Origin: Planctomycetia bacterium
Lineage (GTDB): Bacteria > Planctomycetota > Phycisphaerae > UBA1845 > UTPLA1
DNA length: 64,000 bases
Assembly (NCBI GenBank): GCA_015200345.1
Contig: CP054187.1
Span: 2,898,470-2,962,469, forward strand
Direction: 5' to 3'
The stretch's first letter is position 1. The number at the start of each line of letters is the position of its first letter. Made by a program: the position numbers and the translations under genes. The notes under the pieces are model-generated. The model was not told the DNA's origin. It searched no databases and saw only the letters and a list, made by a program, of their open reading frames with translations. Positions 50,463-56,527 of the stretch are shown one piece after another.

Positions 50463-53400
50463 TCACAGATGATGCACGTAAATCTCCACGGCGTGCCCCT
50501 CGATCTCCACGCGGGCCGGTTCCACGTCGTGCAGTGGTGCATCGCGCAGCGAATCCGCCAGCGTCTCGCCGCGGATCGTATCGCCATGCGCCGCGAGCAC
50601 GCGCTGGATGTCCGCGTCGCCGAGCACGGCGAGGTCGATGTGCTGCTCGTAGCGCAGGTTGAGATTCTTCCGCACCTGCTGAATCTGATTCACCAGGTCG
50701 CGCGCCATGCCCTCGTCGATCAACGCCGGCGTCAGATGCGTATCGAGCACGAGAATGCCGCAGCCCGGCACGCGCTCGGCGGCGAAGCCCTCCTTCGCGT
50801 GCAACTCGACGAGCATCTCCTCGGAGGTCAGTTCCACGTCCTGCCCGGCGACGTTGATCTTGCAAACGCCGCCTTGCTCGAGCTGCCGCACGAGCGCGTC
50901 CACATCTTGGTGCGCCGCCAGGGCCGCCTTGATCTTCGGCGCGAGCGGCCCGTGCTTGGGGCCGATCTTGCGGAAGTCGGGCTTCAATTCGTACGTCACA
51001 TACTCCGCGATCGCGGCCGAGTCCTTGTACTCGATTCGTTTGACGTTCAGTTCATCGCAAATGACGGCTTCGTACTTGCGCACCACCTCGGCGCGCCGGT
51101 GGAACAGTTCCATCGTCGCGAGGGGCTGCCGCACGCGCAGCTTCGACGCCGCCCGGGCCGCGCGCCCGCACGACACGAGCTGCCGCACCAGTTCGATTTC
51201 TTCGTTGAGCGCGACGTCGATTCGCGCGCGCACCGCCTCGCGCGTGTCGGCAGTCACCGGGTAGTCGCAGAGATGCACGCTTGACGGCGGCAACGAGCCG
51301 CTGGCTTCAGCCCGCGCGGCACCAGGAATTTTCGCGCCAGCCACCACCAGATTCTGATACATCTCCTCGGCGATGAACGGCGTGAACGGCGCGATCAGCT
51401 TCGCGACCGTCACGAGACACTCGTACAGCGTCGCGTAAGCGCTGTGCTTGTCGGCGTCCATTGCCGATTTCCAGTAGCGGTCTCGACTGCGGCGGATGTA
51501 CCAGTTCGACAGCGCATCCACGAACGCGCTCAACGTCCGCGCGGCGGTGAAGTTGTCGTACGCTTCCATCGCATCAAAGACGCGCACGCTGCACTGCGCC
51601 AGTTCGGAGAGAATCCAGCGGTCGAGTTCGGATCGGGTTTCGCCGGACGGCGCTCCCGACGACGGCGCCGCGCGGGCTGAAGCCCGCGGCTCGTTGGCCG
51701 ATGGCGTCCATTGGTCGATGTTCGCGTAGATCACGAAGAAGCTGTAGCAGTTGTAGAGGCGAATGAGGAATTCACGCTGGCCCTCGGCGATGGCGCTCTC
51801 CTGAAAGCGGATACTCGTCCAAGGCGTCTGGCCGCTGAAGAACAGCCAGCGCATGGCATCGGCGCCTTCGTGATCGAAGATGTACGTCGGCTCCTTGTAA
51901 TTCTTCTTGCTCTTGGACATCTTCAGCCCGTCTTCGCCCATGAGCAGCCCGAGAACGATGCAGGTTCGAAACGGGAGCGGGTATTCCTGTGGCTGGATGG
52001 CCGTAGCATGAGAGCCAACGCCCAATGAGCCGTCCAATGAGCCGTCCAATGAGCCGCGGGCTTCAGCCCGCGCGGAAGCCGTATCAGCGGTTGCATTCAA
52101 CGTCGCCACGCCGTCCTTCCCGAACAGCATCGTGCTGATCGCCACGAGTGAATAGAACCACCCGCGCGTCTGATCCAGGGCCTCGCTGATGAAATCCGCC
52201 GGAAACTGCGACGCAAACATGTCATGATTCCGGTGCGGCCAGCCCCATTGCGCGAACGGCATCGCGCCGCTGTCGTACCAGCAGTCGATCACCTCGGGAA
52301 CGCGCCGCATCCGCGACGAAGCATCATTCTCAAACGAGCCGCGGGCTTCAGCCCGCGCGGCCTGTCGATCGTGCGCGCACTTCGCACACGGAAACGTCAC
52401 CGCGTCGATGTACGGCTTGTGGATCTTCAAATGATCCGACAGCGACGGCTCGGCGGCTTTCGCCTTCTCCCACACGTCCAATCCCGCCACGCCCGGTTTG
52501 GCTGTCAGCGCGGCGTACGAATCGACGGCCTCCATGTGGCCGCACGTTTCGCACACCCAGATCGGCAGCGGCGTTCCCCAGTAGCGCTCGCGCGAGAGCG
52601 ACCAATCGACGTTGTCGCGCAGGAAGTTCCCGAAGCGGCCTTCCTTGATGTGTTCGGGCAGCCAATGGATCTGCGCGTTGTTTTCCAGCATCGCATCGCG
52701 GAATTGCGTCGTGCGGATGAACCAGCTCCTGCGAGGATATTGAATGAGCGGATCCTCATCGGCCCGCCAGCAGAACGGATAGTCGTGGCGATACTGCTCC
52801 TGATGCAATAGCAAGCCGCGCTCCTTCAAATCGCGACAGATGTCCTTGTCGCATTCCTTCACCCAGCGGCCGCGGCAGTACTCGGGGCCTTCGTCGGTGA
52901 AGGTGCCGTTCGGGGCGACGGCGCAAAGCAGCGGAATGCTCGCCGGGTTCTTGAACCGCTTGCGCTCCTGATTCATCAGGTCAAAGTCGACTTCGCCGAA
53001 TGCCGGCGCTTCGTGAACAAGGCCCGTACCCGATTCGAGGGTCACAAAATCGGCGTGCAGCACACGCCAGCAGGCGTAGTCCGCGCCACCGGCGGCGAGT
53101 TCCGGTTTGTAATCGCCGAGGAGGTCCGCCGGGCTTGCGTGAGCGACGTGCGGCTTCGCGGCGCTTTTGCGGTACAGATCGAACGGCGGGCGATAGCTCA
53201 ACCCCACCAGCTCCGCGCCCTTGACCGTCCGCTCGACTTGCCAGACGTCGGTCTTTTTCACCTTCTTGGCGATCGATTCGACCAGTGCCGCGGCGAAGAT
53301 CAGCCGCTCGCCGGTTTCGCGGTCGTGCACGATGGCGTAGTCAAAGTCTTTGTGCACCGCCGCAAACATGTTGCTCGGCAACGTCCACGGTGTGGTCGTC

Positions 53401-54254
53401 CAGACGAGGAGCGAATAACGAGCCGCGGACTTCTGCCTGTGCGGCGCTGAATCGATGAGTGAATCGCTCTCTCCCATGCGATCGGCCGCGCGAGCTGAAG
53501 CTCGCGGCTCATTGTGGGAAGCTCGCGGCTCGTTGTGGGAAGCTCGCGGCTCGTTGTGGGAAGCTCGCGGCGCTGCCGCCCACGTATCGAGCTTCTGCCG
53601 AAACCGCTCATCCTCGACCAATGGAAATCGCACGAACACGCTGGGGTCGTCCACCTCGCGATAGCCCTGACCCACTTCGCCGCTCGAAAGCGCCGTGCCG
53701 CCCTGCGCCCACCACCAGACGATCTTGTGCCCCTGGTAGAGCAGCCCCGCGTCAAACAGCTGCTTCAACGACCACCAGACGCTCTCAATGTAGCTCTGGT
53801 GATAGGTGACGTACGCCTCGTCGAGATTGACCCAGAAGCCCAGCCTCCGCGTCAGCTCCTCCCACTCCTTCGTATACCGAAATACGCTTTCGAGGCACTT
53901 GCGGTTGAACGCCTCGACGCCGTATGCCTCGATTTCTTCTTTTGTATGAATGCCAAGATCTTTGCAAACCTCGACTTCGACCGGCAGGCCGTGGGTGTCC
54001 CAACCGCCCTTGCGCAGGCACCAGTGGCCGGTCATGGTCTTGTATCGCGGGAACAGGTCCTTGATGGCGCGGGTGAGGCAGTGGCCGGGGTGCGGCAGGC
54101 CGTTGGCCGTCGGCGGGCCTTCAAAAAAAACAAACGGCTTGCATCCCTTTCGTGCATCGAGCGATTGCTGATAGATGTTGTTGGCCTGCCAGAAGGCGAG
54201 GATGCGCTTCTCCATCGCGGGAAAATCGAGTTGACTGGGGACTTCGTTGAACAT
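50463..54254 (-). CDS. ileS: Isoleucyl-tRNA synthetase with five repeat-derived insertions
   Basis: 1263 residues, about 170-200 longer than the usual IleS2-type enzyme. Class I signatures are intact: HPGH (55-58, the HIGH motif) and KMSKS (778-782), with GWDTHGLPVE, WWWAQGGTALS and CWYDSGAMPF. It charges tRNA-Ile. The extra length is explained by in-frame copies of a palindromic repeat: residues about 226-279 (including three EPRASHN-type units), 628-646, 726-744, 853-864 and 978-988. Each reads as EPRASARAA or AARAEARGS depending on orientation and lies at a loop or domain junction. Start 28 bases after the MATE stop, so the two genes are probably co-transcribed. Confidence 0.95.
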   Translation of the reverse strand: MFNEVPSQLDFPAMEKRILAFWQANNIYQQSLDARKGCKPFVFFEGPPTANGLPHPGHCLTRAIKDLFPRYKTMTGHWCLRKGGWDTHGLPVEVEVCKDLGIHTKEEIEAYGVEAFNRKCLESVFRYTKEWEELTRRLGFWVNLDEAYVTYHQSYIESVWWSLKQLFDAGLLYQGHKIVWWWAQGGTALSSGEVGQGYREVDDPSVFVRFPLVEDERFRQKLDTWAAAPRASHNEPRASHNEPRASHNEPRASARAADRMGESDSLIDSAPHRQKSAARYSLLVWTTTPWTLPSNMFAAVHKDFDYAIVHDRETGERLIFAAALVESIAKKVKKTDVWQVERTVKGAELVGLSYRPPFDLYRKSAAKPHVAHASPADLLGDYKPELAAGGADYACWRVLHADFVTLESGTGLVHEAPAFGEVDFDLMNQERKRFKNPASIPLLCAVAPNGTFTDEGPEYCRGRWVKECDKDICRDLKERGLLLHQEQYRHDYPFCWRADEDPLIQYPRRSWFIRTTQFRDAMLENNAQIHWLPEHIKEGRFGNFLRDNVDWSLSRERYWGTPLPIWVCETCGHMEAVDSYAALTAKPGVAGLDVWEKAKAAEPSLSDHLKIHKPYIDAVTFPCAKCAHDRQAARAEARGSFENDASSRMRRVPEVIDCWYDSGAMPFAQWGWPHRNHDMFASQFPADFISEALDQTRGWFYSLVAISTMLFGKDGVATLNATADTASARAEARGSLDGSLDGSLGVGSHATAIQPQEYPLPFRTCIVLGLLMGEDGLKMSKSKKNYKEPTYIFDHEGADAMRWLFFSGQTPWTSIRFQESAIAEGQREFLIRLYNCYSFFVIYANIDQWTPSANEPRASARAAPSSGAPSGETRSELDRWILSELAQCSVRVFDAMEAYDNFTAARTLSAFVDALSNWYIRRSRDRYWKSAMDADKHSAYATLYECLVTVAKLIAPFTPFIAEEMYQNLVVAGAKIPGAARAEASGSLPPSSVHLCDYPVTADTREAVRARIDVALNEEIELVRQLVSCGRAARAASKLRVRQPLATMELFHRRAEVVRKYEAVICDELNVKRIEYKDSAAIAEYVTYELKPDFRKIGPKHGPLAPKIKAALAAHQDVDALVRQLEQGGVCKINVAGQDVELTSEEMLVELHAKEGFAAERVPGCGILVLDTHLTPALIDEGMARDLVNQIQQVRKNLNLRYEQHIDLAVLGDADIQRVLAAHGDTIRGETLADSLRDAPLHDVEPARVEIEGHAVEIYVHHL
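51295..51320. repeat. Palindromic coding repeat, copy 1 (inside ileS)
   Basis: Starts GAGCCG on the plus strand; core GGCTTCAGCCCGCGCGGC. Encodes AARAEASGS in IleS. Confidence 0.85.
51667..51693. repeat. Palindromic coding repeat, copy 2 (inside ileS, opposite orientation)
   Basis: Core GCGGGCTGAAGCCCGC. Encodes EPRASARAA in IleS. Confidence 0.9.
52024..52075. repeat. Palindromic coding repeat, copy 3, with two 12-bp tandem units (inside ileS)
   Basis: Two copies of AATGAGCCGTCC (52024-52047) precede AATGAGCCG and the core GCGGGCTTCAGCCCGC. Encodes ARAEARGSLDGSLDGSLG. Confidence 0.9.
52336..52361. repeat. Palindromic coding repeat, copy 4 (inside ileS)
   Basis: GAGCC then core GCGGGCTTCAGCCCGC; encodes AARAEARGS just before VPEVIDCWYDSG. 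Confidence 0.9.
53420..53445. repeat. Palindromic coding repeat, decayed copy 5 (inside ileS)
   Basis: GAGCCGCGGACTTCTGCCTG keeps the layout of the unit with several changes. Confidence 0.6.
53485..53573. repeat. Palindromic coding repeat, copy 6, with three 21-bp tandem units (inside ileS)
   Basis: A variant core GCGAGCTGAAGCTCGC (53485-53510) is followed by three near-identical 21-bp units (53511-53573), each encoding the heptad EPRASHN. Confidence 0.9.
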
Positions 54255-54282
54255 GTGGTTATCTCAAATTGGCCGCTTGTTC

Positions 54283-55944
54283 TCATGGAGCCGCGGGCTT
54301 CAGCCCGCGCGGCGCTGGATTCGCGAGAGCATCGTTCAATCCCGTTTGATCGGCCGCGCGAGCTGAAGCTCGCGGCTCGTTGCCAGAAACGCACGGCTCG
54401 TCGCCTGAAGCTCGCGGCTCGTTGCCAGAAACGCACGGCTCGTTGCCTGAAGCTCGCGGCTCGTTGCCAGAAACGCACGGCTCGTTGCCAGAAGCTCGTG
54501 GCTCGATTTCGGACGAGCGAGGCTCGATAGCCTTTGCATCGCTTTCGCGCTGGTGGGCGAAGATGTCGATCTTTCGCCATTTTCCGCCCTGCCAGCGACC
54601 GTACATCAGCACGCCGAGGAAGATAATGTAAAGCGTGCAGGTCATCCACGGGCCGTGATGCAGCCAGCCGGGCAGCAGCTTCGTCGCGAGCCAGCCGCCG
54701 CCGATGAACAGGATCCAGCAATTGAGAATGACCACGACGGCGGGCCACTTGGCGTCGCCCGCGCCGCGCAGCGCGCAGGTGTAGGTGATGCACGCCGCGT
54801 CAAACACCTGAAACACGGCGGCCCAGATGAGGATCCCCGCGCCGACGGCGATCACCGCCGCGTCGGACGAGAGAATCCGCATCAGTGACTCGTTGAATAC
54901 CCAGAAGCCGATGCCGACGACCCCCATGTATGCGCCGGTGATCCACATGCACGCGCGCACCCGCCGCATCGCCAGGTCCAACCGCTTCTCACCGATCGCG
55001 TTGCCGACGAGCGTGCTGACGGCGATGCCCACGCCGATGGCCGGCATGAATGACACGTGCATGTATTGCATGGCGATGTTGGTTGCGGCGAGGGTGGCGG
55101 TGTCGAACCCGGCCATGAGCCAGGCGAGGAAGACAAACCACGAGGCGACGTCGAGCGTCCACTGGATGCTGGCCGGCGCGCCGAGGTTGAGGATGCCGCG
55201 CTGGCACGACCAGTCGAACCGCCAACCCGAGCGCGAGGCGAACTGCCGATGGTACTCGCGTGACAGGAAGATTCCCGTGAGCATCGCCGCGCGCACCAGC
55301 CACGAGATCAGCGTGGCCCAGGCCGCGCCCTCGATCCCCAGTCGCGGCAGCCCGAATTTGCCGAACACCAGGCCGATGTCAGCAAAGATGTTCAGTACGA
55401 CGGCGACGAGCACCGAGTGCATGGCCACCTTCGGATGGTGCACGCCGTTGAAGAACGACTCCAGCCCGGTGCAGAGAATGGCCGGGCCGATCGACCACAT
55501 CACAATGCGGCAATAGGCGATTTCCATTTCCTGCACGGCCGGCGCGTGTCCGACGGCGCCCCAGAACGTGGGCAAGGCCGAATTGATCAGCGGCACGAGC
55601 GCGGTGAACGCCGCGCCGATGTAGAACGTCTGCCAGGCGTAGGCGGCGCCCTCGGCGGGCTTTCCGCGGCCCAGCGACTGGGCGGCGAAGGTCTGCACCG
55701 CGTTGGAAAGCCCCATGCCCAGGCAGAGGATGATGAACAGAAAGAAGGTGCTGGGGCTGATCGCCGCAGTGGCCTCGGTTCCCAAGCGTGAGACGACGAT
55801 GAAGTCGGTCAAACCCAGCGCGAAGTGAGAGACCTTGGTGCCAATGATCGGCAGGGCGAGGATGATGAGCGCGCGCATGTCGGCGCGGAGACCCGTTGGG
55901 TCGGGTTGCTCGGCGACGGGCAGCGGCATGGATGGACCACTCAT
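54283..55944 (-). CDS. MATE-family efflux transporter with repeat-derived C-terminal tail
   Basis: 553 residues from ATG 55944 (an upstream TTG at 55962 lies in the terminator T-run). Twelve transmembrane segments, with LIILALPIIGTKVSHFALGL, LGMGLSNAVQTFAAQSLGRG, IGVGIAVSTLVGNAIGEKR, matching the MATE two-fold repeat. It exports drugs or metabolites using an ion gradient. After the last helix the tail (about 474-553) is hydrophilic and made of repeats: EPRASGNEPCVSGN heptads, then EPRASARAA, ending APRGLKPAAP whose codons and stop lie in another repeat copy. Upstream is a leader ORF plus terminator; downstream, 28 bases away, ileS. Confidence 0.9.
   Translation of the reverse strand: MSGPSMPLPVAEQPDPTGLRADMRALIILALPIIGTKVSHFALGLTDFIVVSRLGTEATAAISPSTFFLFIILCLGMGLSNAVQTFAAQSLGRGKPAEGAAYAWQTFYIGAAFTALVPLINSALPTFWGAVGHAPAVQEMEIAYCRIVMWSIGPAILCTGLESFFNGVHHPKVAMHSVLVAVVLNIFADIGLVFGKFGLPRLGIEGAAWATLISWLVRAAMLTGIFLSREYHRQFASRSGWRFDWSCQRGILNLGAPASIQWTLDVASWFVFLAWLMAGFDTATLAATNIAMQYMHVSFMPAIGVGIAVSTLVGNAIGEKRLDLAMRRVRACMWITGAYMGVVGIGFWVFNESLMRILSSDAAVIAVGAGILIWAAVFQVFDAACITYTCALRGAGDAKWPAVVVILNCWILFIGGGWLATKLLPGWLHHGPWMTCTLYIIFLGVLMYGRWQGGKWRKIDIFAHQRESDAKAIEPRSSEIEPRASGNEPCVSGNEPRASGNEPCVSGNEPRASGDEPCVSGNEPRASARAADQTGLNDALANPAPRGLKPAAP
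54288..54313. repeat. Palindromic coding repeat, copy 7 (end of the MATE gene)
   Basis: GAGCC then core GCGGGCTTCAGCCCGC; encodes the last residues of the MATE protein. Confidence 0.9.
54353..54378. repeat. Palindromic coding repeat, copy 8 (MATE tail)
   Basis: Variant core GCGAGCTGAAGCTCGC, same variant as copy 6; it starts the 21-bp tandem array. Confidence 0.9.
54379..54525. repeat. Seven 21-bp tandem units encoding heptads in the MATE tail
   Basis: Units begin every 21 bases from 54379. Two types alternate (GCCAGAAACGCACGGCTC and GCCTGAAGCTCGCGGCTC endings), giving a 42-bp higher-order unit that reads EPRASGNEPCVSGN; the last unit is degenerate. Confidence 0.9.
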
Positions 55945-55960
55945 AACGTGATATTCCAAC

Positions 55961-55993
55961 AAAAAAGCCCTGGAAGCGTTGGTCTTCCAGGGC
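55961..55993 (-). terminator. Perfect intrinsic terminator just before the MATE gene (possible attenuator)
   Basis: GCCCTGGAAG (55967-55976) and CTTCCAGGGC (55984-55993) pair fully across a seven-base loop; on the minus strand six T residues follow (55966-55961). It ends 17 bases before the MATE ATG and 40 bases after the leader ORF stop. Confidence 0.85.
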
Positions 55994-56033
55994 CGGTGAA
56001 CTTGGTTCGCGCGAGCTCGCGGATCGTCCCAGC

Positions 56034-56120
56034 CTAGGAAGCTCCCTTCATAACAATGTCCGGCGCAATCAGCGTCGGCTGATTGGCCGTCGCAAGGATG
56101 ATGGAGTACCGCGTCAGCAT
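56034..56120 (-). CDS. 28-residue leader peptide or small protein upstream of MATE-ileS
   Basis: ATG 56120 with GAGG eight bases upstream, TAG at 56036-56034. The peptide starts MLTRYSIILATANQP and ends DIVMKGAS; it has four Ile, two of them adjacent at residues 7-8. A consensus promoter lies just upstream and a perfect terminator follows. The segment overlapping its stop, CTTCCTAGGC (minus 56041-56032), can pair 8 of 10 bases with the first terminator arm GCCCTGGAAG, so a ribosome at the stop would favour termination and a ribosome stalled earlier would oppose it. This is the layout of a transcription attenuator, but a stand-alone small protein is also possible. Confidence 0.55.
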   Translation of the reverse strand: MLTRYSIILATANQPTLIAPDIVMKGAS

Positions 56121-56146
56121 GGGACGTACCTCAATTCGACAAGGGC

Positions 56147-56175
56147 ATGGTAGAGGGCGGCGCTTGACGTGTCAA
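56147..56175 (-). promoter_or_regulatory. Strong promoter of the leader/MATE/ileS unit
   Basis: Minus strand perfect TTGACA (56175-56170), 17-base spacer, TACCAT (56152-56147). Predicted start about 56140, only some 20 bases before the leader ATG. Confidence 0.65.
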
Positions 56176-56178
56176 GCG
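56161..56178. promoter_or_regulatory. Palindrome covering the -35 box
   Basis: CGCTTGAC and GTCAAGCG around GT: a perfect 8-base-arm inverted repeat that contains the TTGACA box, so a protein bound here would control the promoter. Confidence 0.5.
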
Positions 56179-56245
56179 GAACGTGCGAAGGGCGAGTAGC
56201 AAGAGAAACCAGGCGAACGATGACTGGTATGCGGTTCGACGTTTC

Positions 56246-56527
56246 CTAGACGCAGACGACTTCCCGCACCTGTGGCAGGTGTTTCTTCAGCGACGCTTCG
56301 ACGCCCATCTTGAGTGTCATCGCCGCAGAGGGGCAGCCGATGCAGGCGCCGTGCAATCGCACGCGCACCACGCCCTCCTGCGTGATGTCAACCAGCTCGA
56401 TGTCGCCGCCGTCGCTTTGAACGGCCGGACGAAGCTGCCGAATGATGTCGGCGACCTGGTCGTGCAGCGTGGTTGCATCGGATGCGGCATCGGACGGCGC
56501 GGCCTGGGATTTGGGGGCGACGGGCAT
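56246..56527 (-). CDS. NifU C-terminal-domain-like iron-sulfur scaffold
   Basis: 93 residues from ATG 56527 (GGAG seven bases upstream). SDGGDIELVDITQEGVVRVR followed by the CxxC site GACIGCPSAAMTLKMGVE (Cys62, Cys65). Carries or delivers Fe-S clusters to target proteins. Monocistronic as far as can be seen. Confidence 0.92.
   Translation of the reverse strand: MPVAPKSQAAPSDAASDATTLHDQVADIIRQLRPAVQSDGGDIELVDITQEGVVRVRLHGACIGCPSAAMTLKMGVEASLKKHLPQVREVVCV

Follow-up and report, generated by a model that had tools for sequence, protein, structure and literature searches.

The leader region of the MATE and ileS genes

The window, which is the whole 64,000-nucleotide stretch of DNA analysed here, carries a gene for a MATE-family efflux transporter followed in the same direction by ileS, the gene for a type 2 isoleucyl-tRNA synthetase (IleRS), with 28 nt between the MATE stop codon and the ileS ATG. 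The identities of the two proteins are firm (TIGR00797, TIGR00392, PF01554, PF00133), and no other ileS was found in the genome. In front of MATE, in the region 55961-56178, lies a candidate leader whose elements are all on the minus strand, along with MATE and ileS. The order is NifU-domain gene, promoter, Shine-Dalgarno (SD) core, 28-codon ORF, 39 nt, hairpin with T6, 16 nt, MATE and ileS. The features are as follows.

56246..56527, minus strand: upstream NifU-domain gene (PF01106), given for context and outside the switch
56161..56178, no strand: inverted repeat over the -35 box, 8-bp arms with a 2-nt centre, CGCTTGAC-AC-GTCAAGCG
56147..56175, minus strand: predicted sigma-70-type leader promoter, TTGACA-17 nt-TACCAT, scoring 10/12 in a sequence scan
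56129..56132, minus strand: SD core of the leader ORF (TTGAGG), anti-SD duplex -6.9 kcal/mol
56034..56120, minus strand: leader ORF of 28 codons, MLTRYSIILATANQPTLIAPDIVMKGAS
56097..56102, minus strand: adjacent Ile codons 7 and 8 (ATC ATC), from the sequence
56067..56069, minus strand: Ile codon 18 (ATT), from the sequence
56055..56057, minus strand: Ile codon 22 (ATT), 7 codons before the stop, from the sequence
56032..56042, minus strand: antiterminator strand GCTTCCTAGGC, comprising the last two codons, the stop codon and two bases beyond
55984..55994, minus strand: terminator 5' arm GGCCCTGGAAG, common to terminator and antiterminator
55961..55994, minus strand: intrinsic terminator, an 11-bp hairpin with T6
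54283..55944, minus strand: MATE-family efflux transporter, first gene of the operon, ATG at 55944 (TIGR00797, 1.3e-59; PF01554, 6e-41)
50463..54254, minus strand: ileS, type 2 (DUF5915) isoleucyl-tRNA synthetase, ATG at 54254 (TIGR00392, 1e-237; PF19302)

A preliminary description of this region had proposed an attenuator, and nearly all of its parts were found again. The perfect TTGACA box is present within TTGACA-17-TACCAT, the 28-codon ORF with a good SD does contain four Ile codons, two of them adjacent, and the terminator stem with six T residues precedes the MATE ATG as an 11-bp hairpin, T6 and a gap of 16 nt, within which no second promoter is found. The competing pairing claimed for the leader stop was likewise recovered: GCTTCCTAGGC pairs at 8/10 positions with the first terminator arm (CTTCCTAGGC with GCCCTGGAAG), and the duplex of the antiterminator strand with the terminator 5' arm amounts to -17.1 kcal/mol here. 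Because this strand overlaps the stop codon, a ribosome could mask it directly. The 18-bp palindrome stood in part, as an inverted repeat does lie over TTGACA but is not perfect, its 8-bp arms flanking a 2-nt centre. The remark that nothing resembles a T-box was borne out by Rfam, which gave no T-box match for the window at gathering score and none up to E=10 in 55900-56300. Weak matches to other known RNA families (NsiR1, ncS037, radC) fell far below the Rfam cut-off and were rejected. A second copy of the antiterminator/terminator sequence was sought across the genome and not found.

The coding part of the operon also contains repeats. A palindromic element, CGCGGGCTTCAGCCCGCG, occurs at 7 sites with at most 3 mismatches in window positions 51299-54374 (0.74 matches expected by chance), all of them inside ileS or at the MATE end and MATE-ileS junction. 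Within ileS the element is read in frame and adds peptide inserts such as EPRASARAA. The window holds no sites of the element beyond these 7. Genome-wide there are 59 copies with at most 1 mismatch, while the reversed control has 0. Tandem arrays of 21 bp (GAAGCTCGCGGCTCGTTG...) at 53497-53571 and 54365-54505 add repetitive peptide to ileS and to the MATE C-terminus.

Conserved layout and covarying antiterminator

The comparison with relatives was anchored on MATE because whole-leader nucleotide matches stop at the sister genome: the search returned a full-length match only in that genome of the same genus, and terminator pieces before MATE in two further genomes. Of 114 genomes of the order, 99 yielded a MATE orthologue, and 97 loci were examined; the relatives named below are mostly Phycisphaerae MAGs. 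Leaders passing fixed criteria precede MATE in 46 of the 97 genomes, 25 with ileS downstream, 17 without it and 4 in neither group. The scoring weights for the choice of leader were set by eye, and three starts (G016, G021, G066) were placed by hand. Across these 46 leaders the ORFs span 14-44 codons, the stop codon stands 25-39 nt from the terminator, and the terminators occupy the same place before MATE; the layout is constant while the peptide sequences diverge. The leader ORF, the terminator and the competing pairing expected upstream of MATE are conserved in many relatives. The sister species keeps the frame, the length and the four Ile codons, with 4 synonymous and 3 non-synonymous codon changes and no indel. 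A TTGAC -35 box with a -10-like hexamer lies upstream of 28/46 of the leaders.

To test covariation, the stop-codon region of each leader was matched against two kinds of terminator 5' arm, its own and those from other species. Pairs from one and the same leader average -14.02 kcal/mol, compared with -11.64 (sd 0.36) when arms are swapped between species and -12.76 (sd 0.30) when they are swapped within the family, and none of 20,000 permutations was as good in either case. A smaller set of leaders also shows this covariation of stop strand and terminator arm. Examples of the pairing are GGTTTCCCTGG with GCCCCGGAAACC in G005, GCATTCCTGAGG with CCCGGGAATCC in G087 and GGCACCCC with CCCGGGTGCC in G075. 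In 20/46 leaders the arm finds its best partner window at the stop codon, against an expectation of 23% (p 0.0017); in 26/46 the single best partner lies outside the stop-codon region. For the arms of family f4, a CCGGGG segment lying 14-21 nt upstream often pairs better. A ribosome with the usual footprint, positioned at the stop codon, would hide much of the stop strand or of this upstream segment. PG...APP or xPP commonly precedes the stop in f4 leaders (L104, L105, L110, L115 and others), and the codons concerned form the antiterminator. Such RAPP-like leader ends resemble known arrest motifs.

When folding of the nascent RNA was modelled with a ribosome on the first Ile codon (or at codon 6 in leaders without Ile), the stop region captured more than 30% of the terminator arm in 44/46 leaders. 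With the ribosome at the stop codon, capture is impossible by construction, and without any ribosome folding favours antitermination in 27/46 leaders. Covariation and folding together point to an antiterminator that excludes the terminator and could be blocked by a translating ribosome.

The leader RNA of the window folds more stably than its shuffles (z = -4.25). Promoter-like and terminator-like sites, counted singly, are near the shuffle expectation in the region. A strict detector of the joint architecture (promoter of at least 9/12, SD, ATG ORF, and a strong terminator 22-42 nt after the stop) was applied to both strands of the window and of 80 named loci, nearly all from Planctomycetota. 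It found 16 sites in 1.78 Mb of strand sequence, 16/16 of them directly upstream of MATE, and none elsewhere in that sequence.

Since some MATE-ileS operons have no detectable leader (five in f5, and those of G053 and G018), the leader is not essential. Visual inspection of 15 loci with stand-alone ileS genes revealed no clear leader and a single possible one (G042/L181), which argues that the switch goes with MATE. Some families (f4, f7, f8) retain the leader before MATE genes that lack ileS, with Ile not enriched; in f8, a family with MATE and no ileS, it was seen in only about 10 of 42 genomes. In place of ileS, the gene after MATE in this family is often one for a purN-like formyltransferase (L087, L089, L092; PF00551 for L087).

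Association of leader isoleucine codons with ileS

Leaders with ileS downstream are far richer in isoleucine (80/585 codons, 13.7%) than those without it (12/430, 2.8%). At least one Ile codon is found in 25/25 of the former, 20 of which have at least two, and in 8/17 of the latter. The difference is significant by Mann-Whitney (p 6e-7), by family-stratified permutation (p 5e-5) and by PGLS on the MATE tree (p 2e-6 at the fitted lambda of 0.56; 2e-5 at lambda 1, full Brownian motion), and it persists within f1 (p 0.018) and f4 (p 0.003). Some leaders without ileS may be spurious, which would pull their own Ile fraction towards background and would not raise that of the ileS group. Of the remaining 19 residues, two fell below 0.05 uncorrected, Arg (p 0.02) and Leu (p 0.049); both would fail correction, and the idea that other residues are tuned to the operon in ileS-less genomes was dropped.

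The enrichment also belongs to the leader and to its reading frame. An overlapping set of 18 leaders holds 59 Ile against 15.0 (sd 3.7) in shuffles, and Ile content is similar in the MATE proteins of both groups (7.3 vs 8.0%). Ile triplets number 80 in the ORF frame, compared with 19 and 7 in the other frames. The ratio of ATT to ATC is 48:28 in the leaders and 124:650 in the MATE genes of the same genomes. Of the 80 Ile codons, 79 stand at least 5 codons before the stop, upstream of the antiterminator. A lone Ile codon is present in two leaders of f1 (G005, G007) and in three of f4.

This pattern recurs in several families (f1, f4, f5, f6). Because the f6 leader is still Ile-rich where the downstream synthetase is of the other subtype, IleRS1, the association may follow the reaction and not one gene lineage. 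In L082 and L085, which belong to two other families, a type 1 IleRS takes the place of the type 2 enzyme after MATE. Several relatives have a GNAT acetyltransferase gene beside ileS (the L063 protein matches PF13302), in the order MATE-GNAT-ileS in L063, L064 and L070 and directly before ileS in L202. Leaders without ileS show a different feature, found post hoc: Asn-Pro occurs in 8/17 of them (e.g. L080, L081, L087, L092, L113, L122; shuffle mean 2.0, reached in 0/5000) and in 3/25 ileS leaders. Since stand-alone ileS genes lack a clear leader and MATE genes without ileS keep one in some families, the attenuator travels with MATE, and it bears Ile codons when ileS shares its transcript.

Proposed mechanism, alternatives and significance

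We believe it very probable that the region is a ribosome-controlled leader-peptide transcription attenuator that senses charged tRNA-Ile on behalf of the MATE-ileS operon. This was the preliminary reading, and the conserved layout, the covariation and the enrichment of Ile where ileS lies downstream support it. The ORF would be translated. When Ile-tRNA is plentiful, the ribosome would reach the stop codon and cover the antiterminator strand, so that the terminator folds and transcription ends before MATE. If isoleucine runs low or IleRS is inhibited, so that Ile-tRNA becomes scarce, the ribosome would stall on an Ile codon at least 5 codons upstream, the free antiterminator strand would capture the first arm of the terminator, and the polymerase would read into MATE and ileS, which are presumably co-transcribed. 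The response would increase both an exporter and the very enzyme whose failure had led to the stall. Any response to drug-stalled ribosomes, which the preliminary description also envisaged, is likewise a prediction. For the leaders that precede MATE without ileS, the simplest guess is that they report general stalling of ribosomes.

On the best reading, a familiar type of switch is found here in an unfamiliar context. Classical leader-peptide attenuators control the trp, his, ilv and pheST operons. Like these, the present region combines a short in-cis leader ORF with a predicted ribosome site, probable regulatory codons (here Ile, tied to the ileS of the operon), an intrinsic terminator between the leader and the first gene, a competing antiterminator, and the position of the ribosome as the likely signal. 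In contrast to the trp type, where a separate segment 2 follows the leader stop codon, the antiterminator strand here sits directly over that stop codon. The target, too, differs from the classical cases in combining an efflux pump with ileS, and the setting is Planctomycetota. The pheST operon shows that attenuators can control a synthetase (PMC1262725). In Firmicutes and Actinobacteria, uncharged tRNA-Ile raises ileS through a T-box riboswitch (PMC1262725); the physiological logic is the same, whereas here the sensing would be done by a ribosome on a leader ORF and Rfam detects no T-box. In Caulobacter crescentus, a short leader CDS before ileS, CCNA_03934, is named as a control construct (PMC4117421); it resembles the leader here in its position, and differs in that the relevant part of that paper describes neither an attenuation mechanism nor a MATE gene. 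Our literature search, incomplete in coverage, returned no account of leader-peptide attenuation in Planctomycetota or of a MATE-ileS operon under such control.

The nearest parallel on the efflux side is PA5471.1-armZ of Pseudomonas aeruginosa, which acts in the control of MexXY: full translation of the leader leads to termination, and stalled ribosomes allow read-through towards the efflux system (PMC13041342). It differs from the region here in responding to ribosome-targeting drugs and defective tRNA, with no Ile specificity established, and in controlling an anti-repressor and not a synthetase operon. The precedent (PMC13041342) makes it a possible, if clearly less probable, explanation that the MATE leader is a general sensor of ribosome-stalling antibiotics, as in the armZ or erm leaders, with the Ile codons secondary. 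The same attenuator before MATE genes without ileS, where Ile codons are not enriched, would fit such a sensor, as would the 27/46 leaders that favour antitermination when no ribosome is present, but it leaves unexplained why Ile, and no other residue comparably, tracks ileS across families.

It is quite improbable that the short ORF encodes a functional small protein whose transcript the terminator merely ends. Its good SD, its own promoter and the frame kept between the two sister species could be read in that way; the peptide, however, is unconserved beyond the genus, and what stays fixed is the RNA pairing at the stop codon and the spacing of the terminator. We give slightly less credence still to the -35 palindrome as a repressor operator and the main control of the operon. 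The repeat over TTGACA matches in 8/8 positions in the window, but in 6/8 in the sister species and elsewhere at about background (mostly 0-3 of 8, at most 5); a conserved operator was rejected on this ground. A chance meeting of a constitutive terminator with a spurious ORF is the least probable of all. Promoter-like and terminator-like sites are individually about as common as in shuffles, yet their joint architecture occurs only before MATE in the DNA scanned, and both the covariation and the Ile tests contradict this explanation.

Beyond the charged tRNA-Ile attenuator itself, the operon might be a dedicated response to poisoned IleRS, in which ribosomes stalled for want of Ile-tRNA turn on the exporter, GNAT in several relatives and a type 2, mupirocin-resistant-like IleRS together. 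The leader would then be a MATE switch of modular design, acquiring Ile codons when ileS enters the operon and shedding them when it departs. We regard this extension as speculative and rather unlikely. If it were true, one attenuator would sense the damage done by natural IleRS inhibitors and deploy export, modification and fresh enzyme against it. The main reading, for its part, places an exporter under tRNA-charging control and would so connect efflux with inhibitors of aminoacyl-tRNA synthetases. The lineage amounts to a natural experiment: one attenuator design is kept, and across families its likely regulatory codons change with what the operon contains.
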